IMG/VR virus record: IMGVR_UViG_3300044613_002011
Coordinates: 1 to 34,369 of that record
Direction: 5' to 3' (one strand)
Length of the DNA: 34,369 bases
Source: a virus
Under the pieces are notes generated by a model that worked only from the letters and a program-made list of their open reading frames with translations, had not been told where the DNA came from and made no database searches. Position 1 is the stretch's first letter, and every line of letters starts with the position of its first letter. Both the position numbers and the translations under genes were made by a program. This document shows, in pieces, positions 1-32,988 of the stretch.

Positions 1-332
1 ATACCTAACTTCTCTGGCCTTAATTCGTCCAGATTCTTATCATTGGCAAATTCACCTAGACTGTTAATGTGATTTAAAGAAATTCTCCAAGTTTCATTTC
101 TTTTCAAATTTCCTACTTCGACTATTAGTACAGGTTTATTTTTTAATCGTGCTTGATTATAAACAACTTGATTATTTCTCATCCGGCCTCCCCACAATAC
201 CGACCAGATAACTGGAATATCCTCGTTGTCGTTGCAAAGTTGCCAGCCTATTCTCTTAATACCTGATTCTACAGCATTAAAAATAGGTTCGCTGTTCAAC
301 GCACCAAATTCTCTATAAATTTTAAGCTTCAT
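1..332 (-). CDS. Capsule-synthesis-like glycan protein, N-terminal part (cut by window edge)
   Basis: The reading frame starts at the ATG whose first base is 332, runs without a stop for 110 codons and leaves the window at position 1, so only the N-terminus is visible. The protein starts MKLKIYREFGALNSEPIF and has a segment VLIVEVGNLKRNETWRISL followed by an N-x-L...RPEKLG stretch. That layout (hydrophobic strand, G-N/G-Y, aromatic-R, then R-P or D-R-W) resembles the middle of the three capsule-synthase-like proteins between 2498 and 5168 and similar proteins common in marine phages. The conserved C-terminal GIP motif would lie outside the window. No Shine-Dalgarno precedes the start. A late-promoter-like ATTAAATA lies 22 bases upstream and faces a divergent + strand gene. 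A role in polysaccharide transfer is inferred from family resemblance only. Confidence 0.6.
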   Translation of the reverse strand, partial: MKLKIYREFGALNSEPIFNAVESGIKRIGWQLCNDNEDIPVIWSVLWGGRMRNNQVVYNQARLKNKPVLIVEVGNLKRNETWRISLNHINSLGEFANDKNLDELRPEKLG

Positions 333-369: not shown

Positions 370-771
370 ATGGCAAAATTTATAAAACGGTTAAAAAAGT
401 CTGGTCTTAAAAATCTAAGAAATATTGTAGTATTAGGTACAGGGTTTGGACATATGGATCAGCTTTTAGAAGAGGCAGACAATATATTTGTATTGACCTC
501 AACCTTTGGATCGTTAAGAAAACGAAATTTAATTTATCGAGAAAATTTTGAAAATATAACAATATATCCAGAGATAGATTTAGTCTTAGTTGATAGAAAA
601 TACATCAATTCTTTAGAAGCATTACGACATATTTTAACAAGATTCAATCCTCCAATTTATATTCAAGGTGAAGAATATCTCGGCAAGGAAGAATCTCGAC
701 CAATAGGATTAATTGGTTATAAATGTGTGGAAATATCCGATGGAAAACAAGTATGGAGACTAGCCCCTTGA
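370..771 (+). CDS. Hypothetical protein, possible Rossmann-like fold
   Basis: This gene encodes 133 residues and is not assigned to a named family. After a basic N-terminus (MAKFIKRLKKSG) comes a beta strand and glycine turn, NIVVLGTGFGHMDQLL, then a second strand NIFVLTS and a third, IDLVLVDRKY. This order looks like part of a Rossmann or methyltransferase-type fold, but the protein is short and lacks an obvious catalytic motif. It lies divergent to the partial glycan gene and overlaps the next gene by about 19 bases if that gene starts at 753, which suggests co-translation with a glycosyltransferase. A role in surface-glycan synthesis is a guess from context only. Confidence 0.55.
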   Translation: MAKFIKRLKKSGLKNLRNIVVLGTGFGHMDQLLEEADNIFVLTSTFGSLRKRNLIYRENFENITIYPEIDLVLVDRKYINSLEALRHILTRFNPPIYIQGEEYLGKEESRPIGLIGYKCVEISDGKQVWRLAP

Positions 772-1583
772 AAATATCAGTAGTAACAACATTTCACGAA
801 GAAGGTTTAAAAATTTATGGCCAACGAATGATCGATAGTTTTTGTAAAACTTGGCCAGTAGAAGTTAAATTATATGTCTATCCTGAAAAATGCAATCCTG
901 CAATCATTGACCACTCACGAGTTACCTTAATTGATTTAGACAGTGTTGACGATCTAACAAAATTTAAAAATAAGTGGAAGGGAGTTCCTAAAGCCAACGG
1001 TGATGTTAGCAAAGATCCGGTAAGATCAAAAAGGAGAGACTCCGGCAAAGGGTTCAAGTGGGATGCAGTTAGATTTTCACACAAAGTCTATGCCATATTC
1101 GACTGTGCCAGACAAACAGAATCTGATATTTTGATTTGGATGGATGCAGATACTTATTGCCATAGTCCTATTACTATGGCGGACCTTTATAGGATGATTC
1201 CTGCAGACAAAGATCTTTGTTTTTTAGGAAGAAAAGGAAAATTTTCTGAGTGCGGTCTATACTCGATGAATCTTAAAACCGAACAGACACGAAATTTTTT
1301 GTTTGAATTTCAAAGAATGTATGATAATGCAGAAGGTGGTATTTTTAACTTAGACGAGTGGCATGACAGCTTTGTCTTTGATGCAGTTAGATCAAAATTT
1401 CCTTATCTAAAACAATTAGATTGGAGTGAGGGATTGATAACTGGCGAGGGGCATCCACTGATTAACAGCGAGTGGGGAGCTTGGTTAGATCACTTAAAAG
1501 GTTCTAGAAAGAAATTAGGTAAAAGTAAAAGAGAAGACTTGGTTGTTAAGAGAACTGAGCCTTATTGGCAACAATTTAAATAA
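753..1583 (+). CDS. Glycosyltransferase-like protein with DxD motif
   Basis: The protein has 276 residues from the ATG at 753. Upstream ATG 723 and a TTG at 768 overlapping the previous stop are alternative starts; the conserved part begins at KISVVTTFHEEG, just after 768. A GT-A type nucleotide-sugar and metal-binding motif is visible as LIWMDADTYCHSP (D131-A-D133). Further conserved-looking stretches are GFKWDAVRF, DEWHDSFVFDAVR, GEGHPLINSEWG and RTEPYWQQF at the end. Similar proteins occur in many marine phage genomes; donor and acceptor are unknown. The 3' end overlaps the end of the convergent minus-strand gene by 8 bases, with no terminator between them. It probably belongs functionally to the glycan genes on both sides. 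Confidence 0.75.
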   Translation: METSPLKISVVTTFHEEGLKIYGQRMIDSFCKTWPVEVKLYVYPEKCNPAIIDHSRVTLIDLDSVDDLTKFKNKWKGVPKANGDVSKDPVRSKRRDSGKGFKWDAVRFSHKVYAIFDCARQTESDILIWMDADTYCHSPITMADLYRMIPADKDLCFLGRKGKFSECGLYSMNLKTEQTRNFLFEFQRMYDNAEGGIFNLDEWHDSFVFDAVRSKFPYLKQLDWSEGLITGEGHPLINSEWGAWLDHLKGSRKKLGKSKREDLVVKRTEPYWQQFK

Positions 1584-2505
1584 CATATCTTTTAAAAAAA
1601 GACCAAGCTTCTCCAGACTTAAGTTCTTCAAAATTCCAATGACACATTGATAATTTTTCTATCCAGTACTGCCGTTCTTTTAATTCCGGATTTTCTAATA
1701 AACTCAAATCAGTGTTAGCTACTTCGAAGCTCTGGCTGTGTTGAGGATAAGGATCTGTTAAAAATGTCGGAATTCCCTCTATTAGACTAGCTACACTAGG
1801 ACTGCTGTTATATACCACAGACGCCCACGCACCTCTCAGGTCGTCTACTAATTTTTCATTGGTACTTAGTCTAACATTTTTATGATTTATTGTTAAAAAT
1901 CTTTTTATTTTTTTATCGCCGGGATGAGATCTAACTATGATCGGTCTTTTTCTTGAATGCTGTCGAATTTTTTGGATAGTATCATTAAGCCAGTCCATAA
2001 CCGATAGTCCTCGCATACTCCAGCCTCCATTTCTTTGAAGACAGATTAAAATATGATCGCCGCTAGTTCTATAAGGTTTTAAATTAAGATTTAACGCCTG
2101 AGAAATTTTTTGCCATCTTATAGGATCTACATCTTTGTTAAAATAAAATCCTGTAGTAGGAAACACACCATCAAAACTGTACCTTAGATATCTTCTAGAA
2201 TTTTCGGGATCTGCATAAAGAAATAAATTACTGTCAACTATAAGACTTTTTTTATTGTTTTTTCTTTGTAAGTCTATAGCTTGTTGTCTTAATATTAAAT
2301 GAGGCAATCTTTTACCGTCATCGTGAACGAATCCTTGTATTAAGGCTACGTCACAGGGAATCGCTGTCATGGTTCGGTGAGCGATGGCTGTATCTCCCGA
2401 AGCTATAACGCCTTGACAAAAATTATCTAGTATCAGGGGCTTCTCGGGATTATTATTCTTGGAAGGAATTCCTCCGTAGTATGCAACCGCAGTTAATTTA
2501 GACAT
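1576..2505 (-). CDS. Distant capsule-polysaccharide-synthase-like protein
   Basis: The protein has 309 residues. MSKLTAVAYY at 2505 is preferred over the in-frame ATG at 2520, because it gives an 8-base overlap with the upstream gene and leaves a compact start. Residues 188-197 (RPIIVRSHPG) and 233-252 (NSSPSVASLIEGIPTFLTDP) are the features shared with capsule polysaccharide synthesis proteins (KpsC/KpsS-like, GT-B fold): a strand with R-x-H-P, then S-S...E-G-I-P-x-F. It is the last gene of the six-gene operon headed at 6609 and more divergent than its three upstream relatives, lacking their D-T-G-Y...W-H-R block. The substrate is unknown. The CDP-glycerol transferase (TagF-like) superfamily has a similar C-terminal motif and is an alternative. 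Confidence 0.7.
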   Translation of the reverse strand: MSKLTAVAYYGGIPSKNNNPEKPLILDNFCQGVIASGDTAIAHRTMTAIPCDVALIQGFVHDDGKRLPHLILRQQAIDLQRKNNKKSLIVDSNLFLYADPENSRRYLRYSFDGVFPTTGFYFNKDVDPIRWQKISQALNLNLKPYRTSGDHILICLQRNGGWSMRGLSVMDWLNDTIQKIRQHSRKRPIIVRSHPGDKKIKRFLTINHKNVRLSTNEKLVDDLRGAWASVVYNSSPSVASLIEGIPTFLTDPYPQHSQSFEVANTDLSLLENPELKERQYWIEKLSMCHWNFEELKSGEAWSFFKRYVI

Positions 2506-3589
2506 GATATTTTCTAGCAATTTCTAATGCTGTACCGTTTATTAGTTCGTCATAGGTAAATTGACTGTAACTGAGCATACATAACCAGTTCGATAGGTTC
2601 GGTCTAAGCAAATCGTTTATATCTGATAGTTTGTTTCTAGTAACAGGATTAGTTATATGTTTGTCTAATGTGATAGCTGGGATTCCTGCCCATATTGCCT
2701 CAGTAGCAGCATTAGAATTGATATTAACTACACAATAATAATCTTCGTCACATAATTCTTTATACAGATTAGTTCTAACTCTTTTTTCTGCTTTTTCTCT
2801 AAAAACTATAGGCTTATCTGTATATTTTCTTAGCTCAGATTCAACTTCGTATTTCCAGGTTTTAATATCAACATGAAAAATTCCTGCAGCAAACGATCCA
2901 GGTTCAATAATAAGAATCTTTTCTCCGTGAGTTCTCCATTGTGTTGGAAATGTTTTAAAAACTCCTAATCTATCTACCGGAGCAGAAAACTCTTTTCCTT
3001 GATGTAAATGATTTCTAACTAATCTATGCCATTTTTTATTTGTCTCGACAAAATTTGTATATCCGCTGTCAATAAACCAAAAAGGAAATTTATTATCTAT
3101 CTTAGAAATTAAAAGTTTTTCGTTTCCTACAGTATTTCTAATTAAACAATCTTCTTCATAGTTGTTAAAATTTTGTCTTCTAACTAATTGAGCATTCTCG
3201 GATAATCTTAATCCTAGACTTTTTACAAAGTTTTCTTTTTTACTGGTCTTATAAAGGTCAAGAATTTTTTCTTCGCCAATTTTTTCAATAAAATATTCTA
3301 TATTTCCGTGAACATTGTTATAGTATTCTTCTTTTCTATTTCTAACGAATTCAATAACTTGATCTCTGTATCTTCCTAGATCTCTTTCTACTGCACGTTG
3401 TATCTTGTCTTTGAATTTCTTCCTCATTTTGTCTAGACTATATTTTCTTTTTCTTGTTTCTATACCTATATACTCTTTGACATCATTAAGCTCGTCCTCT
3501 TCCAGTACAATAGAAAGACTTGGATTATAATGATCAATAAGACTTAATAAAAAATATGCTATTTCTTTGTTGTTTAATAATAGTTTCAT
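2498..3589 (-). CDS. Capsule-polysaccharide-synthase-like protein with extra N-terminal helical domain
   Basis: The protein has 363 residues and starts in an ATGA overlap with the preceding gene (3586). Residues about 30-130 are strongly charged and helical (for example KMRKKFKDKIQRAVERDLGR) and are absent from its two upstream paralogues. From about residue 165 it matches them: FWFIDSGY (170-177), KKWHRLVRNHLHQ (185-197), KILIIEP (224-230), DKPIVFREKAEKR (258-270) and NSNAATEAIWAGIPAITLD (291-309). The last motif is typical of capsule synthesis (Kdo-transferase-like) GT-B proteins. The helical domain may serve for oligomerisation or anchoring. It is the fifth gene in the late-promoted glycan operon; acceptor and donor cannot be read from sequence. 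Confidence 0.7.
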   Translation of the reverse strand: MKLLLNNKEIAYFLLSLIDHYNPSLSIVLEEDELNDVKEYIGIETRKRKYSLDKMRKKFKDKIQRAVERDLGRYRDQVIEFVRNRKEEYYNNVHGNIEYFIEKIGEEKILDLYKTSKKENFVKSLGLRLSENAQLVRRQNFNNYEEDCLIRNTVGNEKLLISKIDNKFPFWFIDSGYTNFVETNKKWHRLVRNHLHQGKEFSAPVDRLGVFKTFPTQWRTHGEKILIIEPGSFAAGIFHVDIKTWKYEVESELRKYTDKPIVFREKAEKRVRTNLYKELCDEDYYCVVNINSNAATEAIWAGIPAITLDKHITNPVTRNKLSDINDLLRPNLSNWLCMLSYSQFTYDELINGTALEIARKYHV

Positions 3590-4368
3590 AGATTGTTTAG
3601 AATTTTATAAGCAGTACCATTAGATATCTCGCCTACAGAAAATTGACCATAAGCAATAGTGTGACATTGTTTTTGAATTACGTTAACTTCTGGCCGAAAA
3701 GGATTTTTCAGCATCGACAAATCAGTAGATGCTAATGGAGTTGCGGCACACGGCACTGATACGAATGCTGGAATACCGTATAAGACAGATTCTAGAGCTG
3801 CGATGCTGTTAAATGCTACTGTAGCGTAAACTCCAGAATTAAATGCATCGTAAATTGAGTATTCTTGGTTTCTGTAAGATCTAGATCCTTTGGATCTAAC
3901 TTCTATAGGTAGATCTGAATAAGTTTTAATTTTTTCAGTTGTTTCTTTTATCCAAGTATCACAATCAAAACCATAAAAATTAGTGGCTTTGGGATTTGGC
4001 AATACTAATAAGATCTTTTGATTGTAATTTTTCCAGCCGGACCAAATTAGTCGAGGATCTTGACTAGTTAATGTATTCCATCTGTCGCTAGGTCGATCTT
4101 CCGCCTTGGTGTGTTGCACATCATTTTTAACTACTCTATGCCAGATTTTTTTTCCTGAAGAATTTCCCCTACTAGGAAAATTTCCTACATATCCTGTATC
4201 GATATAATAATAATCTCTTTTTTCTTTTTCACATTCTTTTATTTCTTTTCTTTTTACGACGCCTCGAACGACAAAAGGTTTTGATTTGTCGTCAAAATTA
4301 GTTGTCAGCTGTCCTTGCGAACTACTTGAAAAACTTTCTAAAATGTTTTGATCTTCGTCTTTTACCAT
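3586..4368 (-). CDS. Capsule-polysaccharide-synthase-like protein, paralogue 2
   Basis: The protein has 260 residues; its ATG overlaps the end of the upstream gene by 7 bases. Blocks shared with the neighbouring paralogues are YYYIDTGYVGNF (53-64), KKIWHRVVKNDVQH (73-86), DRPSDRW (91-97), KILLVLPNPKATNFYGFD (118-135), LPIEVRSKG (153-161) and AFNSIAALESVLYGIPAF (185-202). The family resembles KpsC/KpsS-type capsule synthesis proteins, although at 260 residues it is shorter than bacterial members and probably a single domain. It may transfer a sugar to a host or virion surface glycan. The presence of three close relatives in tandem suggests sequential sugar additions or acceptor diversification. 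Confidence 0.7.
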   Translation of the reverse strand: MVKDEDQNILESFSSSSQGQLTTNFDDKSKPFVVRGVVKRKEIKECEKEKRDYYYIDTGYVGNFPSRGNSSGKKIWHRVVKNDVQHTKAEDRPSDRWNTLTSQDPRLIWSGWKNYNQKILLVLPNPKATNFYGFDCDTWIKETTEKIKTYSDLPIEVRSKGSRSYRNQEYSIYDAFNSGVYATVAFNSIAALESVLYGIPAFVSVPCAATPLASTDLSMLKNPFRPEVNVIQKQCHTIAYGQFSVGEISNGTAYKILNNL

Positions 4369-5168
4369 AATTCAGTTAACATACGTTGTGCTTGCCCAGA
4401 AGTAAATTCGCCAGTATGAAATTGACCATAAGCTAAATGACTGGCCCAAGAAAAGATTTTATCTTTGTCTGGATAATAAGGAGTATCTATTTTAGTAAGA
4501 TCTTTAGAAGCTACTGGTTCTGCAGCATTGACTGGGGCGAGAGTAAAAACAGGAATTCCGTGCAAGATTGATTCCGTAGCTGCATTACTGTTAAATGTAA
4601 CTAGGGCAAATACATCATCATCTAGTGCTTCTTTTAAGGTATTATGTGCGACTCTGTCGATCCTATTTTTTGCACGTTCTCTAATTTCTATCGGTCTATC
4701 AGTATTTTGTTTAATTGTTTCTATAACTTCATTGATCCAACTATCAGCATCTAACCCATAAAATTTCATAGGTTTTTCATCGGGCTTGGCGATTAATATT
4801 TTTCGACCATCTTTTTTCCAGGACTTTATAGGAATTTTAAAACTTTCCCATCGATCTCCAGGGCGTTCAACGATCTCTCTGTGTTGCAAATTATTTTTTA
4901 CTATTCTGTGCCAGTATTTCCATCCGTGGGGATTTTTAGATGAGATTTCATTTCCAAAATATCCTGTGTCCATGTAGTAAAATGTTCTATTTTCTTTCCA
5001 ACATCTTTTTATAATTTTTTTCTTCAGGATACCCCTTAATACTATAGGATCACTTGAATCTTCATAGACAAATTTATCAGAATCTGTAGGCTTAACTCCG
5101 CAGCCTTGTGCGAATTTTTCAATGAAGGGGTCTTCTCCTTCTTTACTTAGGCAAATCCAGTTTTTCAT
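4362..5168 (-). CDS. Capsule-polysaccharide-synthase-like protein, paralogue 1
   Basis: The protein has 268 residues and starts in an ATGA overlap with the upstream glycosyltransferase. The shared blocks are FYYMDTGYFGNE (63-74), KYWHRIVKNNLQH (84-96), ERPGDRWESF (101-110), RKILIAKPDEKPMKFYGLD (122-140), DRPIEIRERAKNR (157-169) and TFNSNAATESILHGIPVF (191-208). It is clearly a paralogue of the next two genes; the T-D-R-P-I-E-I-R-E-R block is nearly identical to the one in the 2498-3589 protein. As in those, the C-terminal N-S-N-A-A-T-E...G-I-P motif points to a capsule or surface-carbohydrate GT-B transferase. It ends MLTELW just as the next gene begins. The exact reaction is unknown. Confidence 0.7.
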   Translation of the reverse strand: MKNWICLSKEGEDPFIEKFAQGCGVKPTDSDKFVYEDSSDPIVLRGILKKKIIKRCWKENRTFYYMDTGYFGNEISSKNPHGWKYWHRIVKNNLQHREIVERPGDRWESFKIPIKSWKKDGRKILIAKPDEKPMKFYGLDADSWINEVIETIKQNTDRPIEIRERAKNRIDRVAHNTLKEALDDDVFALVTFNSNAATESILHGIPVFTLAPVNAAEPVASKDLTKIDTPYYPDKDKIFSWASHLAYGQFHTGEFTSGQAQRMLTELW

Positions 5169-5845
5169 AATCCGTGTTGCTGACAGAATTCTGTATAAAT
5201 TCTTTCCCTATGCCATTCGTTTGAAAAACTTCCTTGATTAGAGAATTCGTGAAAGCAAGGAGTTCCTAACGTATAATGTACTAATTTAGCGTCTGGCGTA
5301 TGATCGTATTCTATGTCTAACCAATTCCATTCCTTAGGCAATTCTCCGACAAGATCGTCTGTTAACCAAGTAAATCTATGTACTTGTGCTCCAGTGGCCG
5401 ATTGAATGAATTCGGGTGTTACTTTAGCATTTCCAGGATGACCGCAATTCCAAAGAATAACAGAACTCCAATTTTTACGCGGATAATCCTCGTTCTTCGC
5501 TCCAAGATACTTTTCAGTAAGTCTGGTTCTATACTCGTGTTTGACGACCTGGACTGCTTTTGATTCATCTCTTAGTTCCCATAATTTTGTAATATCATCT
5601 CTTAACAGCATATCGCCGTCCATAAAGATTGCCCATCCTTTATAATTCATTAAATGAGGTACAAGAAATCTACTGTAGATAAAATGATTGCTGCCGTCGG
5701 TGTGAGTCTCGTCATAATCTTTTAAAATATTAAGTGCCAAAGGACTAATAGCTACTGGCTGAGAACTATGCCTTATAATACTGTTAGAACACACGTGATA
5801 GGCAATAGCTTCTCTAGGATCGTATCCGATAAAAATTGGAATCAT
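5165..5845 (-). CDS. Glycosyltransferase-like protein (GT-A, DxD)
   Basis: Start at 5845 is chosen because MIPIFIGYDPREAIAYHVC opens the conserved domain and the ATG forms an ATGA overlap with the stop of the upstream cytidylyltransferase fusion; an in-frame ATG at 5872 would add nine residues that overlap that gene more deeply. The resulting protein has 226 residues. It carries HFIYSRFLVPHL followed by WAIFMDGDMLLRDD, where D76-G-D78 is the metal and nucleotide-sugar binding motif of GT-A enzymes of the GT8 kind. Later segments are SSVILWNCGHPG and LVHYTLGTPCFHEF (a histidine-containing C-terminal loop like GT8). Second gene of the glycan operon. The sugar donor is unknown. Confidence 0.75.
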   Translation of the reverse strand: MIPIFIGYDPREAIAYHVCSNSIIRHSSQPVAISPLALNILKDYDETHTDGSNHFIYSRFLVPHLMNYKGWAIFMDGDMLLRDDITKLWELRDESKAVQVVKHEYRTRLTEKYLGAKNEDYPRKNWSSVILWNCGHPGNAKVTPEFIQSATGAQVHRFTWLTDDLVGELPKEWNWLDIEYDHTPDAKLVHYTLGTPCFHEFSNQGSFSNEWHRERIYTEFCQQHGL

Positions 5846-6609
5846 TTTCTTTCGATGTCCTCTTCGATGCACTTATCTCCGAATTGAATTTCGATGACTT
5901 TCAGAGGTGACTCAGATTCATTGACTAACTGATGCCAGGCGGTCTTAGGAATCCACATATGGTTATGTTCGGCAAATTTTCCGACCAATTCAGCATCGGT
6001 TGATTTGTTAACTGTATAAAGTGTTGCTTCGCCTTCTGATACAAACCAAAATTCTGATCGATCTGCATGGCGTTGCATACTTAGATATTTTCCAGGATCA
6101 ACAGTTAGTTCTTTGAGCTTAACTCTATCATTGGGCTCATGAAGAACTCTATAATAACCCCAACTACGTTCTGTTTTAGGTGCTTTCCATTCTTGTAAAA
6201 TCCAAGAGCTAGAATTTTTTTTATCTTCGCCGCCAACACCAAATACAAACTCAAGATGCAACATTTCAGAAAGTAAATCCATTTCTGGAATATTTTCTTT
6301 GGTTCGATCTCCGCCGTTGGCAAAAATAATATGTGCATTGGGATGAATGTCTCGTACTTTTCTAATAGCATCCTTGGCGCTGTTATCTGCGTCATCGAAG
6401 TTTATAACACGATCGACATCATAAAGATTGGCAACTATGGTTGCACGTTCTGCCCAGGGCATAAACTCGTGCCCTTTCTTTCTACGTAGCCATTCGTCAG
6501 AATTAATTCCAACTATTAATTTATCGCCTAGCTCTTTTGCTGCTTTGATGTAGGCAATATGCCCGGAATGTATAGGGTCAAAGCCCCCTGTAACTAAGAC
6601 TATTTTCAT
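5842..6609 (-). CDS. Fusion of a HIGH-type nucleotidyltransferase with a mannose-6-phosphate-isomerase-type cupin
   Basis: The protein has 255 residues in two domains. Residues 1-140 form a cytidylyltransferase-like domain of the RfaE/HldE C-terminal and TagD superfamily: VLVTGGFDPIHSGHIAYIKAA has the H-x-G-H nucleotide motif (14-17), followed by INSDEWLRRKKG, M-x-W-A-E-R (50-55) and IIFANGGDRTKENI. Residues about 148-255 match the type II phosphomannose isomerase cupin found at the C-terminus of ManC/AlgA: WGYYRVLHEPNDRVKLKELTV, LSMQRHADRSEFWFV (metal-binding H181, E186), IPKTAWHQLVN (H226) and VIEIQFGDKCIEEDIER. Such a protein could activate a sugar phosphate and isomerise a hexose phosphate. 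It is the first gene of the glycan operon, directly behind a perfect late promoter. Confidence 0.85.
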   Translation of the reverse strand: MKIVLVTGGFDPIHSGHIAYIKAAKELGDKLIVGINSDEWLRRKKGHEFMPWAERATIVANLYDVDRVINFDDADNSAKDAIRKVRDIHPNAHIIFANGGDRTKENIPEMDLLSEMLHLEFVFGVGGEDKKNSSSWILQEWKAPKTERSWGYYRVLHEPNDRVKLKELTVDPGKYLSMQRHADRSEFWFVSEGEATLYTVNKSTDAELVGKFAEHNHMWIPKTAWHQLVNESESPLKVIEIQFGDKCIEEDIERK

Positions 6610-6642: not shown

Positions 6643-7098
6643 TTAAAGAGTGGCGTCTTCGAGGCCAGCAGTTCTAAGTTTAACAATATTAGAAATCTGC
6701 CATTGCTTAATGTCAAGAGCCTTGATAATACCTAGCCACTTGTTACGTAGTAAGGCAAAGTCGTTAATGATTTTTTCAAAATCTACGACATCGGCTTCGC
6801 CTTCTACAAATTTTTCACAATCTCTAGAAGATAGACTGCGCTGGTAATTTTCAAGGTATTTACGAAAATGCTGGCTGCGAAGTCGTCGAAGTTCAATATT
6901 AAGATATTCTAATATAGCTTCAATTTCTTGAAGTTGGTTAAATCGATTTTCTACAATGCCGGGCATATTAGCAGCAGCTTTTTCAAGATTTCCCGTTATT
7001 CGAGAATCTATTTTTGCTGCTAATAATTCAGCTTCATAGTATGCCACAGCATCTGGTATTTGTGAGATATCTTTCGAAACTCGATCATACCAATTCAT
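6643..7098 (-). CDS. uvsY: UvsY recombination mediator protein
   Basis: The protein has 151 residues, slightly longer than T4 UvsY (137). In T4, UvsY loads the UvsX recombinase onto gp32-coated single-stranded DNA. The evidence is the all-helical, charged sequence, the pattern F-R-K-Y-L-x-x-Y followed by an acidic patch and DFEKIINDFALLRNKW, and a C-terminal helix KALDIKQWQISNIVKLR that resembles the end of T4 UvsY. Its place one gene after uvsX supports the call. The start follows the upstream stop directly (TAAATG), with GAGGAA as a ribosome binding site inside the end of the upstream gene. It is cotranscribed with uvsX. Confidence 0.85.
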   Translation of the reverse strand: MNWYDRVSKDISQIPDAVAYYEAELLAAKIDSRITGNLEKAAANMPGIVENRFNQLQEIEAILEYLNIELRRLRSQHFRKYLENYQRSLSSRDCEKFVEGEADVVDFEKIINDFALLRNKWLGIIKALDIKQWQISNIVKLRTAGLEDATL

Positions 7099-21606: not shown

Positions 21607-21645
21607 TTTGGCCGGTTTGAGTCAGATAAAAAGGGGCAAAAAAGG

Positions 21646-21653
21646 TGTAAATA
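21646..21653 (+). promoter_or_regulatory. Late-promoter-like motif for the HNH-like gene
   Basis: The + strand reads TGTAAATATTTCTATG: TGTAAATA, five bases, then the ATG at 21659. This is the same motif-to-start spacing as the minus-strand late genes, here found on the opposite strand. A weak AAGGTG overlaps the motif. Confidence 0.5.
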
Positions 21654-21658
21654 TTTCT

Positions 21659-21994
21659 ATGAGACCGTTATGTAAGTGTGGATATAGACATCGAGCCGTT
21701 AACTATAAAAAAGACGGTAAAGTCTATTACCGAAGTCTGTGCGAGATATGCCTGTCCCACGGAGTATATCATGGTATCCCGAGGTGGTTTAGATCAGGCT
21801 ATAAAATGAAGCAGCAATGTGAAAAGTGCGGTTTTAAATCACCGCACAGAGAAGTATTTAGAGTATTTCACATCGATGGCAATCTGGATAACTGCCGTTA
21901 CAGCAATTTAAAAACTGTCTGTTGTAACTGTGCTCAGATCCTTGGCAAGGAGGGAATAACTTGGCGCCAGGGTGATCTCATTGCTGACAATTAA
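21659..21994 (+). CDS. Zinc-binding HNH-like protein
   Basis: The protein has 111 residues from MRPLCKCGYRHRAVN. An ATG at 21608 is possible, but the start at 21659 sits five bases behind a late-like promoter and begins at the conserved cysteines. Cysteines C5, C7, C28 and C31 may bind one zinc. A second cluster is C54-x2-C57 ... HIDGNLDNCRYSNL ... C88-x2-C91, in which H71-x-D73-G-N75 and N-L-K-T-V-C resemble HNH or endonuclease VII-type ββα-metal sites. It could be a homing-type or structure-specific nuclease, or a zinc-finger regulator. It is a lone + strand gene between gp18 and dNMP kinase, and its 3' end overlaps the convergent kinase gene by 87 bases. Confidence 0.7.
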   Translation: MRPLCKCGYRHRAVNYKKDGKVYYRSLCEICLSHGVYHGIPRWFRSGYKMKQQCEKCGFKSPHREVFRVFHIDGNLDNCRYSNLKTVCCNCAQILGKEGITWRQGDLIADN

Positions 21995-26790: not shown

Positions 26791-29700
26791 TTAAGCCTGA
26801 GCTTCACCCCAACGTAAAATTAGGTTAACATTAGTAGCAGATCCGCTGACCTTGTAAACGTTGATAGCCAATGTATCAGGACCATTAGGGAACGTACCTC
26901 TACCGCCGATAGCAGTGGTTCCTAATTCTTTCAATTGTGACAGATCTAGCACATCGGTAGCTCCGGGATTACTGATGAATGAAAATACCTGTTCGCCTGG
27001 CAGGGCATACGCAGCACCAAATTGGAATGTTACTGTTCCCGCTGCAGACGCAGTAGACGATAAAGTTTGACTGAAGTTAACTCTATAAACTGTAGTGGCG
27101 CCTAAGCTTCTTGCAGTGATACCAGTGACTGTTGTACCGGCTGGAAACTTAGTATCAGTAGTAGCTACTCGAGTGCTCAATGCTGCTCCAGATGCTTCCC
27201 AGCTTGTACTGGTAAAGAATACATAGTTTGAACCGCTGTAGCTGGCCGCAGTTTGGAAAGCGGTTATGGTCATACTTTGAGTTCCTGCTCCGCTTGGACT
27301 ATCGCTCGATCCGCTGCTGCTGAGACTCAACAACGAATACGTGGTGCTGGATGTTTTAAAGTATGCAGTAGTGATACTGTTAATAGTTCTAGCACTGGAC
27401 ATATATGTAGCATTGCTCACAGTGTCGTTGATAGCTAATCCCGAACTGGTCACTGCTGAATCAGCAATCAATATCGAGCTCCTGCTAGTCCTGATCGCTC
27501 TGTTATATTCAGCTGCGATAGAACTAGTCACTGTAAAAGTCACATCTGTATTGCTAGATGAAGATGTTTGAATATCTTCATCGAAGACGATTCTGGTATA
27601 ATTTGTTCCGCTAACTGTGACATAATTTCGCTGTATCTGAGAAATATTCGTGTTATTTCTAAATGCTCCGCTGCTGGCATTGCTTAATTCATCTCCTACT
27701 GCGATCGTAGTGCCTGCAGCATCGAAATCGGTAGTTCTTACAAATAGCTCTCTTCTGGAGTCGCTAGAACCATTATCTATAGCAAGGTTGTTACTGAAAG
27801 CGCCTCTGCTTTGATAAGGATTGTTTGGTGCTACGTCCGGATCCCACCAACGTGCAGTCAATGTTTGAGTTATCGCATTAAATGACACAGCGTTGGCTGT
27901 GGTAGTTAGGGCTCCTTGTACTGTAGCAGTACTGGTAGTCGAGCTTGCTCCCCAGTCTACTGAACCACCTAGGGCGACCTGTGCAAAACTAGGTTGTCCA
28001 CCGGCGGCTGCTGCCTGTAGACCGTTCCAGGTAATTTTACTTGGGTCGATTGGATAATTTGTTGGATTCAAAATACCCTCAACAACAATCGCGCCGCCGC
28101 CTGAGACAGTGTCGGAAGTGATAGATAACTGTGACAGTAATAATTGTGCTCGATTTAATAGTTCTCTTTCTCCTAGATCACCGACTACAGCATTGCTAAC
28201 GCTGGGAGCCAATCTAATGAAGAATGCGGTCTTTTTATCTAGAGTAGCTGAAACTCCCGTAGCAGCGTAGTTAAAAATGTATCCTCGATCAGAATCAAAG
28301 TTTCCATCTATTAGATAAGCGGAACCCCAGTGGCTGATAATTGGACTGGTTGTACAGGAAACCAAAACAGCTCCTGCTCGACTATCGTGTGCTGCTGCAT
28401 CACCTGCTGTGTAAGTTCGTACCGCGCCTGCAGCATAATTTGTTAAGCTGGCCGAACGTGTACATCCAGTTAGATAATTTTGACTAACACTCCTGCCGCT
28501 GAAACTGATAAGTTCGTTATCCACATACACAGTTCCGCTGTTAGGAAAATCTGATACATCATCTAGTTCTAGAAAATTTTGCTCATCGCTGATGGATGCT
28601 GCTAATCTAGATCTTGCGCTTTCGTTTAAAACTTCATATCTCACTGGTCCGTTACCAGTTCTCATATAAGCTTCTGAGTTTAAGTTATTACCTTTTAATC
28701 TATGACAGAATACATAATCGCCGTTTGGTCCTCTTAGCATCCAGTCAATAAATCCAGCACCGTACCAGCTGAACTGTATACCAATCATCTGCATCTTTGT
28801 AACATCAATGTTATATCCCGAAGGTCCAGTACCGTCGCATTTATCTAGGTTCCATTGTGATTGAGGAATGATTAGGTCTTGGACCTTACAAACTTTTACA
28901 CCTGATATATTACTAACTCCTCTGAAATCAGGAGTCACATACATACTGGTATTAGAATCAATCTTAGAAACAACGTGTGTCATTCCTCTAATAACGATCC
29001 TATCGCCTTCTTGTAATTGGTCTCTAAATCTACTGTTAGTTCCTGTTACCGTGTTACTGTTAGAATTGATAGCTATAGTTCCGGCAATTTGGAAAGTGCT
29101 GGTTCTCCTTCCTACGGATAATTGATTTCCGTCGTATTGGAAGAAGATCCCGTTCTGATCGTCAAACGGTCCCGACCTAACCACTGCTCCGTGCCAGTTA
29201 AGCAGAGACATCTGGCATTGAGATCCGATAGTTGCAGTGGTGCTGCCTAGCTGTGTTAAGGCTGTGACTCTAAATGTTCTTTCATCTTCGATTTCCGTTA
29301 CGGTGTAATCTCCGTTATAACCTGTTGTTTGAAGCCCGCTTAGTCTAACTCTTGCACCTGCCTGCACACCGTGATCCACATCGTCGGTGACCACAGTGAT
29401 TATTGCTCCTTGAGCTGTGCTGGCTGCGGTAACTGACCTTAGATCGTAGCTAGGTGCAAACAATGCACCGGTGTTGTACATAGCTCCTTTACCAGACTGG
29501 TATCGTATGTATTTTTTACTCTGACGTATTGCCTGTCCGCCGTGCTGGGGACCTCCTGTGCCTAATTGAACACCACCGTCAAACGGTCTATGAGTAAAGA
29601 ATGTATCTGGTCTTACATACACTGTTCCTAATACTGGTGTTGATGTACTTACAGTACCCGGAGCTCTACAGGTATATTGTATGCTGGTCAAACTGGGGAT

Positions 29701-32700
29701 GGCTTCTACTGAGAAAGGGCCCGCAGCCAGTTGATGATTGGTTCCAGCACTTGAAATAGCAACGTTTATAGAATTTCCTGGAACTAATCCGTGATTAGAA
29801 GCGAAATCTATTTGTATAATAGCGATGGCGCTGTATGTAATAGAGCTGCTTGCATTGACATTAGCGGTAGTATTTGCCGATATAGTAATAGTATTGTAAA
29901 TAGGAATTTGATCACCTCTGGCCGCAGTTCCTGATACGCTTACTCCTGCTAGTTCGGTTCCGCTGACTGAAGTCACTGTAATAAAGACATCGTTAGTAGG
30001 CGAAGTACCTTCAAAGTTTGTTCCTGCTACTTTATATCTATTTCCTACGTAATATTTGCTAGATCCTGTAGTTGGGAAGGTAGAACATTCATAACTGCCG
30101 GCTGCTCGATCGATAGTGAAATTTCCGCCGCCTGTGCCTCTGGCTCCTGTGCTAAATGCTTCGATATCTGTAAAAGAAGCAGTACCTGTGCCCGTGCCTT
30201 GGATGATCGTTACCGCAGTTACAGCACCAACAGACACAGTGTCAACGTTGAGATATAGATCGTTGGTAGGCGAAGTGCCACCTAGATTATCTCCTGTGAT
30301 CAACAGAGTATCGCCTTGTTGCCAATCTGTTCCGCCACCAGACCCGCCGATACCGCCCACAGAGTAAGTGCCGGCAGTGACATTAATATTTAGAAAGCAA
30401 TTAGATCCAGATGGTGTCACAGTTGATAAACTTCCAGTATAACTACTTTCGTCTCCGGTATGTCCTACGGTCACAGAACCGCTAAGATTGAGTGTGGTTC
30501 CAACTATTGAAGTGATTTCTCTTAATAGATTAGTCGCTGCTTCATTACCTACGGCCATTCCAGCTTCTAAACCTAACGTATCAATAACGTCAATGGCTGT
30601 GGCACCTGGAGAGTATGTAGTTCTTACAAATTTATAATCTTGAATACCGTCACTGTTGATATCTCCAAAAATACCAGTTACCTGTGTACCTGTGGCTATT
30701 CCTGTTCCGGATAACGGAGATCCGACCGGCGGAGGAGTGCCTACATATGACAGTGTATTGCCGCCGCTTTCTGTTCTCAACGCTGCTGTGGTCAGTGTTC
30801 CGCTAGATCCATTTGATGCTACTGAGATAGAAGCTGTACCTACTGATGCACCTGAATAAAATCCTGCTTGGCGAAGCTGACTGTTTGATGTGGCCAATAC
30901 CTGACCCGACGATGTTCCTACTTTGGCTTTAGCGTAGTATCTAAAAACTGCTGTAGATGGTACATCAAAAATTAAAAAAGTTCCTTCTGCTCTGGCAAAT
31001 CCTGTGATCGATGACGAAAGAGCTCTAAGGGTAATTGGTGTTCCTGCAGTTAAGCCATGACTAGATTGAGTAGTAACAGATATTAAACTGGCACCAACTC
31101 CGCTGGTTGGGGTGCTGGCATCTGTGGTAATGTTACTGACCGGAATATCCGAAGCACTTAATTCGTAGGTTGACGGATACCCGCGTTGTGTACCAATCGC
31201 TTGCCACTTAGTAGGTTGTAGACCGTATTCAAAGTCAGCATCAAGCATGGCCTGAGGTTGTGCCACACGCATACGTTCGATAGCATCTGTGCCAAAATCA
31301 TACGGTCTTACTTTAAGTTCTGTATTTTCTAAAAATACCTGAATGCTGTCTGTAGACGACATCGAACTGGTATCGTTTTTGAATTTAATTACTGTAACAC
31401 CGTTGTTTACCGATAGTGCGTTCGGATACGCATCTGAATTACCTTCAGTAAATGTTACAGTTGCACCTTTAGTTGGTTCAGCAAAGTTGTAGATTACGAC
31501 GTTATCTGTGACGTTTGATATCAACAATAGATCTTCTAATTCTATCTTACCTAAAACTTCAACTCTACCCACTGCTACTTCTTCTTCAGGTAAAGAACTC
31601 AAACCGTTTTGTATAACACTGATAATGTAACCTAATAATTCTTCAACTCGGTCAGCTGGTCCCGATTCTGTGGCTAGATCGTTATCGATTACCTGTATTT
31701 CTATATCTTGCTCTGGATTGGCATCTAATTGATTTTCTAAAATATAGAGCATTATGAGATCTTGTGCGAATTCATAAGCATCATATTCAGGAAATCTAGT
31801 TCCGTCGATTTGAGGAATGTCTCCATCCCAATACTGGCTGGCTACGAATCTAATTTCTTCGTTGCCGCCATATCTTAAATCGTGCAGTAATGCATCTATG
31901 ACATACCCGGTATCTCTTTCACATTTGACTTGATCGTATACATAACCAGTATATCCAACAGCAGTGGTAACGATGGTGGTTCTAGCAGAGTCGATAGCTG
32001 TTTTAGCACTTTGTAATCCTGCTGCTGCCCAGGTAACATCTGGCAGTGTTCTTCCATAACCTGCTAGTACAGCCAGTGCTGCTGCTTGGTTAGCTGCATT
32101 GATTACATCTGCTGTGATCTGCACTAGGTTTTCTAATATTGTCGCTTCACCTGCATCGGCATTTGATCCAGATGTGTTTTGAGTCAGTGCATTGCCTGTG
32201 CTGACTGTTACTGTATCTCCTCTTGCTACTTGGCCTACGATTGTTTTTAATCTTCCGTAGGCTGCTACTGTTGCTACTTGGTGCGTTGGATCAATACCTG
32301 GGCCGCCAGCAGCGAATCCGTAGAAGAAAAATTTAGCCTGATCATAAGTAGCACTGTTTCCGCCATAGAGTATATCATAGCATAGAGCATTGACAGCGTA
32401 TTTTACATCTCGAGTACACTTAGCAACGTCGTGGTCAGCAGCTGGATAGTTTACTGCTACCCAAGCGTTTACTTCGGCAGCTAAGAAATTTATATTTGCA
32501 ACTAATCTATCTTTAGCAGCTACTTCGCTGGCAGTGGATCCTGATGTGGGTGTTGTAAAGGTTATTGCATCTGCAGAATTTCTTCCGTTAGTAGCTATAT
32601 CTATAACTTCATTGAAAAAAGAATTTACTCTAGTTACTGCTGTAGCATTTGATGCTACTGAACTTATGGTTAAAATATAATTTCTTGCTCTGTTAATCGT

Positions 32701-32988
32701 TCTTACTACAGTCTCTGAAATATCAACAGAGTTATATTCAGCAAGACCCTGGAAAACAGAATTATAATTTGTTCCTAACGTTAGATCAAAACCAACAGCA
32801 TCTACTAGATATTCGATGTCTCTTTCACATTTTTCAGCACTGTCTACTTGATTGTCTATAAATGCAACGATTTCTTTGATAATGAATTGTCGATTCTGAT
32901 TAATTAAACTCCAACCTTCTGGATAAAGGTTAGCGTCTAAGCTTACACCGGGTGTAAAAACATAATTTTTTACGAGTTTCTTTGCCAT
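26791..32988 (-). CDS. Giant virion structural protein, probably baseplate or tail appendage
   Basis: The protein has 2065 residues and starts MAKKLVKNYVFTPGVSLDAN behind an AAGGA ribosome binding site, nine bases after the upstream stop. Residues 50-390 contain three copies of a helical module opening K-C-x-R-D-x-x-Y-x-x-(D/N)-A (53, 190, 355). Residues about 560-640 (DAIERMRVAQPQAMLDADFE, YGLQPTKWQAIG) resemble marine T4-like structural proteins. The rest is beta-rich and Ser/Thr/Gly-rich with internally similar modules (GTSPTNDLYLNV and GTSPTNDVFITV). The C-terminus (about 1750-2065) has repeated Ser/Thr beta segments and ends NLILRWGEAQA. Location next to a fibre gene supports a baseplate/tail-fibre network role. 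No enzymatic motif is visible. Confidence 0.8.
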   Translation of the reverse strand: MAKKLVKNYVFTPGVSLDANLYPEGWSLINQNRQFIIKEIVAFIDNQVDSAEKCERDIEYLVDAVGFDLTLGTNYNSVFQGLAEYNSVDISETVVRTINRARNYILTISSVASNATAVTRVNSFFNEVIDIATNGRNSADAITFTTPTSGSTASEVAAKDRLVANINFLAAEVNAWVAVNYPAADHDVAKCTRDVKYAVNALCYDILYGGNSATYDQAKFFFYGFAAGGPGIDPTHQVATVAAYGRLKTIVGQVARGDTVTVSTGNALTQNTSGSNADAGEATILENLVQITADVINAANQAAALAVLAGYGRTLPDVTWAAAGLQSAKTAIDSARTTIVTTAVGYTGYVYDQVKCERDTGYVIDALLHDLRYGGNEEIRFVASQYWDGDIPQIDGTRFPEYDAYEFAQDLIMLYILENQLDANPEQDIEIQVIDNDLATESGPADRVEELLGYIISVIQNGLSSLPEEEVAVGRVEVLGKIELEDLLLISNVTDNVVIYNFAEPTKGATVTFTEGNSDAYPNALSVNNGVTVIKFKNDTSSMSSTDSIQVFLENTELKVRPYDFGTDAIERMRVAQPQAMLDADFEYGLQPTKWQAIGTQRGYPSTYELSASDIPVSNITTDASTPTSGVGASLISVTTQSSHGLTAGTPITLRALSSSITGFARAEGTFLIFDVPSTAVFRYYAKAKVGTSSGQVLATSNSQLRQAGFYSGASVGTASISVASNGSSGTLTTAALRTESGGNTLSYVGTPPPVGSPLSGTGIATGTQVTGIFGDINSDGIQDYKFVRTTYSPGATAIDVIDTLGLEAGMAVGNEAATNLLREITSIVGTTLNLSGSVTVGHTGDESSYTGSLSTVTPSGSNCFLNINVTAGTYSVGGIGGSGGGTDWQQGDTLLITGDNLGGTSPTNDLYLNVDTVSVGAVTAVTIIQGTGTGTASFTDIEAFSTGARGTGGGNFTIDRAAGSYECSTFPTTGSSKYYVGNRYKVAGTNFEGTSPTNDVFITVTSVSGTELAGVSVSGTAARGDQIPIYNTITISANTTANVNASSSITYSAIAIIQIDFASNHGLVPGNSINVAISSAGTNHQLAAGPFSVEAIPSLTSIQYTCRAPGTVSTSTPVLGTVYVRPDTFFTHRPFDGGVQLGTGGPQHGGQAIRQSKKYIRYQSGKGAMYNTGALFAPSYDLRSVTAASTAQGAIITVVTDDVDHGVQAGARVRLSGLQTTGYNGDYTVTEIEDERTFRVTALTQLGSTTATIGSQCQMSLLNWHGAVVRSGPFDDQNGIFFQYDGNQLSVGRRTSTFQIAGTIAINSNSNTVTGTNSRFRDQLQEGDRIVIRGMTHVVSKIDSNTSMYVTPDFRGVSNISGVKVCKVQDLIIPQSQWNLDKCDGTGPSGYNIDVTKMQMIGIQFSWYGAGFIDWMLRGPNGDYVFCHRLKGNNLNSEAYMRTGNGPVRYEVLNESARSRLAASISDEQNFLELDDVSDFPNSGTVYVDNELISFSGRSVSQNYLTGCTRSASLTNYAAGAVRTYTAGDAAAHDSRAGAVLVSCTTSPIISHWGSAYLIDGNFDSDRGYIFNYAATGVSATLDKKTAFFIRLAPSVSNAVVGDLGERELLNRAQLLLSQLSITSDTVSGGGAIVVEGILNPTNYPIDPSKITWNGLQAAAAGGQPSFAQVALGGSVDWGASSTTSTATVQGALTTTANAVSFNAITQTLTARWWDPDVAPNNPYQSRGAFSNNLAIDNGSSDSRRELFVRTTDFDAAGTTIAVGDELSNASSGAFRNNTNISQIQRNYVTVSGTNYTRIVFDEDIQTSSSSNTDVTFTVTSSIAAEYNRAIRTSRSSILIADSAVTSSGLAINDTVSNATYMSSARTINSITTAYFKTSSTTYSLLSLSSSGSSDSPSGAGTQSMTITAFQTAASYSGSNYVFFTSTSWEASGAALSTRVATTDTKFPAGTTVTGITARSLGATTVYRVNFSQTLSSTASAAGTVTFQFGAAYALPGEQVFSFISNPGATDVLDLSQLKELGTTAIGGRGTFPNGPDTLAINVYKVSGSATNVNLILRWGEAQA

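Follow-up and report, generated by a model that had tools for sequence, protein, structure and literature searches.

The window analyzed here is the complete 34,369-nucleotide stretch of IMG/VR virus record IMGVR_UViG_3300044613_002011. It is part of a T4-like myovirus from fresh water: UvsY was identified by profile, and UvsX-, gp32-, terminase-, and tail-like proteins were recognized by reading the open reading frames (ORFs). At one edge, the window encodes an array of five related proteins, denoted p0, pA, pB, pC, and pD. These are most likely glycosyltransferases (GTs) with an altered chemistry or donor that assemble, alongside a conserved GT8-like partner, a glycan specified by the phage. 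Stated in full, the account toward which we lean, with reservations, is that the array consists of ancient paralogs within the KpsC/WbbB/KrkA superfamily (GT107/GT99/GT140), which have a modified GT-B fold, and that these paralogs belong to a phage glycan-assembly island and act by the changed mechanism proposed below.

Homology among the five copies and their predicted fold

A reading of the window made from sequence alone had noted an ordered set of motif blocks common to three adjacent genes (those of pB, pC, and pD) and regarded the gene at 1576-2505 (pA) and a partial gene at 1-332 (p0) as distant members. The four complete genes are indeed present on the minus strand, and the similarity among them goes well past chance: searched against the window, the pD protein matches pC with an E value of 8.7e-62, pB with 5.6e-30, and pA with 3.2e-10. 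The intact ortholog of p0, found on a near-identical contig (L001:12255-13094; 279 amino acids [aa]; 99% identical over the shared part), contains the same blocks as the other copies and matches them, and when the pB-pD and pA-p0 groups are compared profile to profile, the E value is 9e-47 over nearly the full length. Because these three comparisons agree, the blocks reflect real homology, and, judged by sequence, the five proteins are one family. Alignment with KpsC shows what several of the blocks correspond to: (D)(T/S)GY is the general-base motif (Glu66), KIL(I/L) is the strand running into QXXXD, R-P-I-E-I-R is the strand running into the (K/R)XHP motif, and NSxAAxE is the Ser239 motif.

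AlphaFold2 models were built for two copies, pD and pA; pB, pC, and p0 are linked to the fold by sequence homology. Both models are confident, with predicted local distance difference test (pLDDT) scores given in Table 1, and both fall in a glycan-transferase fold, with KpsC, WbbB, and KrkA as the best PDB matches. For pA, the Z score is 14.6, with a root mean square deviation (rmsd) of 3.9 over 246 aligned residues, versus about 10.8 for the next other GT-B fold; for pD, the Z score is 12.1, with an rmsd of 4.5 over 230 aligned residues, versus about 9.0 for the next other fold. Foldseek gives E values of 1.4e-8 (pA) and 2.5e-5 (pD). The TagF fold appears among the structural matches of pA at rank 49 (Z = 9.4). 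Because the nearest solved structures are those of KpsC, WbbB, and KrkA, the label “capsule-synthase-like” that the array had been given is right as a description of the fold. It does not hold as Pfam family membership: the Capsule_synth profile (PF05159) has no match at an E value of ≤1 among the window proteins and 12 related records, including L001. The CDP-glycerol glycerophosphotransferase (TagF-like) family, for which a profile check had also been suggested, likewise has no match at an E value of ≤1 in the window proteins.

At the sequence level, the family profile matches WbbB across the stretch from HP to NS (E = 0.021), and hhalign matches a wider set of 22 sequences to KpsC-N (E = 5e-5; probability, 68%) in an alignment that covers most of the chain. 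A profile of pA and p0 only finds no PDB relative and does not reach KpsC significantly, nor does a profile of pB-pD only; phmmer searches of the QXXXD-bearing members against PDB return nothing relevant. Pfam, PHROGs, and NCBIfam, run on each array copy, give nothing useful. DUF6716 (PF20471) was set aside as a candidate: its best E value is 0.0022, matches of this kind occur in 9 of 58 members, all below the cutoff, and pD scores 14 bits against a cutoff of 27. The DUF6716 protein of Escherichia coli K1, NeuE, shows no significant relation to the family profile.

Loss of the catalytic aspartate

The conserved elements of KpsC, WbbB, and KrkA are QXXXD, in which Asp is the nucleophile; (K/R)XHP, which contacts the phosphate as well as cytidine; and a Glu that serves as general base (PMC9587256, PMC10148158, PMC12887879). 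The nucleophile is reported to be absolutely conserved and essential in these enzymes, and their covalent double displacement is described as unique among well-characterized glycosyltransferases.

The corresponding columns were read from a single alignment of the phage orthologs with KpsC and KpsS (90 sequences). None of the five copies or their close orthologs has the nucleophile Asp; across all orthologs, its column is occupied by Ser in p0, Gly in pA, Ala in pB and pC, and Pro in pD. The Gln of the same motif is kept only in p0, where the intact ortholog reads Q-H-x-x-S, and in pA, and is mostly Pro in pB, pC, and pD. The HP motif follows the same division, being kept in p0 (R-P-H-P in the intact ortholog) and pA (R-S-H-P) and lost in pB, pC, and pD. 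Conversely, the general-base column, aligned to KpsC Glu66 and WbbB Glu158, holds Glu in p0 and Asp in pA through pD, and the RXHP Arg and the NS Ser are both kept almost throughout the alignment. The loss of Asp is real because other phages and bacterial genomes encode related members in which the QXXXD and RPHP motifs are complete: QVPQD with RPHP in L058, QLPGD with RPHP in L036:8794, and the bacterial sequences L064, L065, and L066. L036:8794 is the sole sequence counted with pA that has QXXXD. With the essential Asp missing from five of five copies and HP missing from three, KpsC double displacement as it is known is therefore unusable by the window copies, and KpsC-type catalysis is not supported.

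A very divergent extra copy on a long branch was also observed (L040:11091-11888 and L032:10438-11235), in which the general-base acid is lost (YIARGY).

Age, selection, and distribution of the copies

The array had been attributed to tandem duplication. In the trees, however, the copies fall into deep, old, separate clades; they are ancient deep paralogs, not recent tandem duplicates. The HP-less proteins form one group (support, 98/98), as do the true QXXXD members (95/86), and three further groups are made up by p0, by pA, and by the Caulobacter gp127 type. Branches in this tree are long, so its deep order is unsure. p0, pB, and pC each form a single clade, and pD sequences group together except for a few divergent extra copies. 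All five copies are under purifying selection: compared with L003, the ratio of nonsynonymous to synonymous substitution rates (dN/dS) is 0.04 to 0.07 for pA, pC, pD, and p0 and 0.14 for pB. These low ratios indicate that the motif-stripped copies are functional. The fastest-changing part of pB is its insertion, which is 55% identical to that of L003, versus 74% for the remainder of the protein, and 35% identical to that of L006, versus 71% for the remainder. The sequence-only reading had described it as a helical N-terminal domain of about 100 residues; the extra residues are there, but the alignment places them as an insertion that follows the first strand and not as a separate N-terminal domain.

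A scan of IMG/VR identified a pD relative in 51 contigs. In all 33 contigs that span cyt to p0, p0 is present once and pA and pD are each present one or more times, so that these three make up a three-copy core; pB and pC are found in only 6 of the 33, representing four lineages. Whole-record searches found three to five copies in each of 13 related records, and the usual number in related contigs is three, with four to five in some. The island occupied by these genes lies between uvsY and, past p0, an unknown protein of 397 aa followed by a uvsW-type helicase; this second border was seen in relatives, and the helicase was identified by eye. The variable part of the island in relatives encodes a GDP-mannose dehydratase, a UDP-glucose-dehydrogenase-type enzyme, an epimerase, a DegT aminotransferase, a GT25 enzyme, and a methyltransferase, which supports a polysaccharide-type gene setting for the array.

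The gt8 gene adjoins pD in 47 of the 51 loci, the exceptions being L035, L036, one fragment, and one rearranged locus, and the same pair is present in pelagiphage Mosig, CcrColossus, and CcrSC. The pair is preceded by cyt, which is fused to gt8 in L024 and L027 and whose nucleotidyltransferase part best matches the HldE type (TIGR02199; E = 1e-21). Such conserved associations suggest that these genes serve a single short pathway, in which a sugar is activated and transferred by the GT8-like enzyme and the KpsC-like proteins act afterwards or together with it.

Family homologs also occur in pelagiphage Mosig (two), in both of the Caulobacter jumbo phages examined (two per phage), in a spring-water podovirus, and in a few bacterial contigs, one of which was judged prophage-like from its neighbors. 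In the Caulobacter phages, the homologous genes directly follow tail genes. One QXXXD-bearing relative, L066:5965-6891, is on a Neomarinimicrobiota contig with phage-like structural genes around it and appears prophage-like by eye. In L067:4951-6657, a Novosphingobium protein carries an HP-less family domain at its C terminus, and the locus contains epimerase-like and other apparent glycan genes. A first scan of genome contigs (query A3) gave no match, and a search for psbA, as a sign of a cyanobacterial host, found none in 13 records.

Gene content of the window

The features of the array and its surroundings are collected in Table 1. The start of pA is taken as the ATG at 2505, with a TTG at 2520 as the alternative.

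Table 1 Features of the glycan island and its border in the window
Feature	Coordinates	Strand	Description
p0	3..332	-	KpsC-superfamily paralog, truncated where the window ends, with 110 of 279 aa present
	370..771	+	Small conserved protein, function unassigned; adjoins gtX in the island; no Pfam match
gtX	723..1583	+	GT-A-type glycosyltransferase; weak Glycos_transf_2 match (E = 0.0018)
pA	1576..2505	-	KpsC-superfamily paralog; R-S-H-P and Gln157 kept, Gly161 at the nucleophile position; pLDDT, 91.1
pB	2498..3589	-	Paralog without QXXXD or HP; fast-evolving insertion of ~110 residues after the first strand
pC	3586..4368	-	Paralog without QXXXD or HP; confined to the window lineage and three sister lineages
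pD	4362..5168	-	Paralog without QXXXD or HP; in all related loci; pLDDT, 94.5
gt8	5165..5872	-	GT8-like GT-A glycosyltransferase; Glyco_transf_8 (E = 9e-8); probable start, ATG at 5845
cyt	5842..6609	-	HldE/TagD-like nucleotidyltransferase fused to a mannose-6-phosphate-isomerase-type cupin
uvsY	6643..7098	-	phrog_231 (E = 4e-17); one border of the island

In nearly all related islands, the small protein at 370-771 accompanies gtX, although its identity is only about 24 to 41% beyond the closest relatives. Elsewhere in the window, a plus-strand ORF with CxxC pairs and a zinc-ribbon- or HNH-like appearance (21608-21994) overlaps the end of a minus-strand kinase-like gene and may be a homing-type insertion. 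A putative structural protein of 2,065 aa (26791-32988) is very rich in Ser, Thr, and Ala; that it could be a target, should the island glycosylate virions, is speculation.

Proposed mechanism and alternatives

The phage copies probably either transfer sugars by a chemistry unlike that of the capsule enzymes or assist a different sugar transferase. p0 and pA, which keep Gln and the cytidine-binding R-X-H-P, would transfer a sugar activated with cytidine monophosphate (CMP) or a related donor. Because KpsC double displacement is not available without the Asp nucleophile, a direct, single-step attack is proposed, in which the conserved Glu or Asp would activate the acceptor; inversion is predicted. 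pB, pC, and pD, which lack HP and Gln as well but retain the cytosine-contacting Arg, the NS Ser, and the general-base acid, may use another cytidine-linked or otherwise changed donor and would work with the GT8-like enzyme encoded beside pD. The activated sugar would be supplied by the nucleotidyltransferase-cupin protein. The acceptor would be reached from the cytoplasm and could be a host envelope glycolipid, in which case infection would alter the cell surface, or it could be phage virion proteins; the data do not decide between these. Putative successive sugar transfer by the array copies, as envisaged in the sequence-only reading, is plausible.

Several points weigh against this mechanism. 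The active-site positions of the copies were matched by sequence alignment, and their sequence similarity to characterized enzymes is at the limit, with the link made by fold and motifs. No CMP-sugar synthetase was found in the 13 related phage records, so that the host would have to supply any CMP donor, and we know of no superfamily member for which single displacement has been demonstrated. Finally, the loss of HP, Gln, and Asp in pB, pC, and pD is equally expected of noncatalytic proteins. Indeed, these three could be pseudo-glycosyltransferases that scaffold or activate the GT8-like enzyme or give it acceptor specificity, leaving catalysis to p0, pA, and the GT-A enzymes only. The HP-less proteins, which form a single, well-supported clade, have lost all three conserved elements for catalysis in the C-terminal domain, purifying selection is strong, and the pairing of gt8 with pD extends to three unrelated phage groups; furthermore, the structural matches of pA include Asp1 (5vaf; Z = 10.2), a GT-B-fold protein that to our knowledge has no known transferase activity. 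A pure scaffold, however, would not need a conserved general-base acid, a cytosine-contacting Arg, or the NS Ser, and we regard this alternative as possible but doubtful. Far less probable is that the array consists of ordinary transferases of 3-deoxy-D-manno-oct-2-ulosonic acid (Kdo) or a similar ulosonic acid that use the KpsC double displacement, as the capsule-synthase label implies. KpsC, WbbB, and KrkA are the top folds, and p0 and pA keep R-X-H-P and Gln, but the disappearance of the essential nucleophile from five copies and all close orthologs contradicts this interpretation, and Capsule_synth is without a match.

The nature of the acceptor allows further alternatives. T4 DNA is modified by cytoplasmic GT-B enzymes, and the island stands beside uvsY, uvsX, and gp32; nevertheless, it is very unlikely that the island glycosylates the phage's own DNA in the manner of T4, given that no thymidylate-synthase-family (deoxycytidine monophosphate hydroxymethylase-like) gene was found in the 13 related records, which reach 219 kb, and that the same island encodes GT25 and nucleotide-sugar enzymes of the kind typical for surface glycans. 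Attachment of the glycan to virion proteins (tail or capsid) instead of the host envelope, which is one version of the favored account, merits more weight, although we hold it only tentatively. An initiating lipid-carrier transferase (PF02397) and a Wzy/WaaL-type ligase or polymerase (PF04932) were both absent from 14 records, and the position of the homologs after tail genes in Caulobacter phages fits this version as well. The island of the window, however, does not adjoin tail-fiber genes, and a lipopolysaccharide (LPS) core or host lipid-linked acceptor would need no lipid-carrier enzyme from the phage. Moreover, the T4-like marine cyanophage P-SSM2 resembles the window phage in having glycan-gene clusters of the LPS type, which have been proposed to alter the host surface (PMC2984593). 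Protein searches of the phage collection turned up no family match in P-SSM2, for which no separate search was made. Together, the missing lipid-carrier, ligase, CMP-synthetase, and thymidylate-synthase genes point to host-supplied donors and to a host glycolipid or virion protein, not DNA, as the acceptor; such absences are weak evidence because the records may be incomplete.

Relation to known systems and significance

The array resembles KpsC (GT107), the retaining beta-Kdo transferase of group 2 capsules, in its modified GT-B fold along the chain (Z = 14.6 for pA and 12.1 for pD) and in the motif order E/D-x-G-(F/Y), Q, (K/R)XHP, (T/N)S. It differs in the replacement of Asp160 in all five copies, the loss of HP in three, the single module, and the lack of a Capsule_synth match. 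The N-terminal domain of WbbB (GT99) shares the fold (Z = 13.9 for pA and 11.7 for pD) and is matched directly by the profile over ILVRAHPG ... TINSSVGLEAIL; in contrast, its nucleophile Asp232 is absent from the phage copies, and the domain is contained in a larger O-antigen polymerase. KrkA (GT140; Z = 12.8 for pA and 9.9 for pD), an example of the negligible sequence similarity among superfamily members, keeps QTLND and HP, unlike the phage copies. Among viruses, the “capsule polysaccharide biosynthesis” proteins of Tetraselmis virus 1 have the same predicted fold in viral structure models (template modeling score, ~0.7) and are present there in several copies, although that virus is an algal giant virus and the likeness is one of predicted fold. 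No phage-encoded KpsC-like enzymes were found in the literature.

Beyond the sequence-only reading, the analysis reveals old, separate clades that are maintained within a uvsY-uvsW island and that have lost the catalytic Asp in every copy. At least three lineages (p0, pA, and the Caulobacter gp127 type) lost the nucleophile separately, and one more clade has lost both the nucleophile and the CMP motif. We see an even chance that the clade lacking HP and QXXXD (pB, pC, pD, and relatives) is a new family of glycosyltransferases or pseudo-glycosyltransferase partners derived from the Kdo-transferase fold and that, in addition, p0 and pA gave up double displacement and kept the CMP site, which would complete a series from intact to stripped active sites. 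These results provide a function class for phage proteins annotated as “hypothetical,” including those of the cultured pelagiphage Mosig and the Caulobacter jumbo phages. Because a widespread, conserved family has lost the Asp while phage and bacterial relatives keep it, a change of mechanism and donor within this fold is directly testable.

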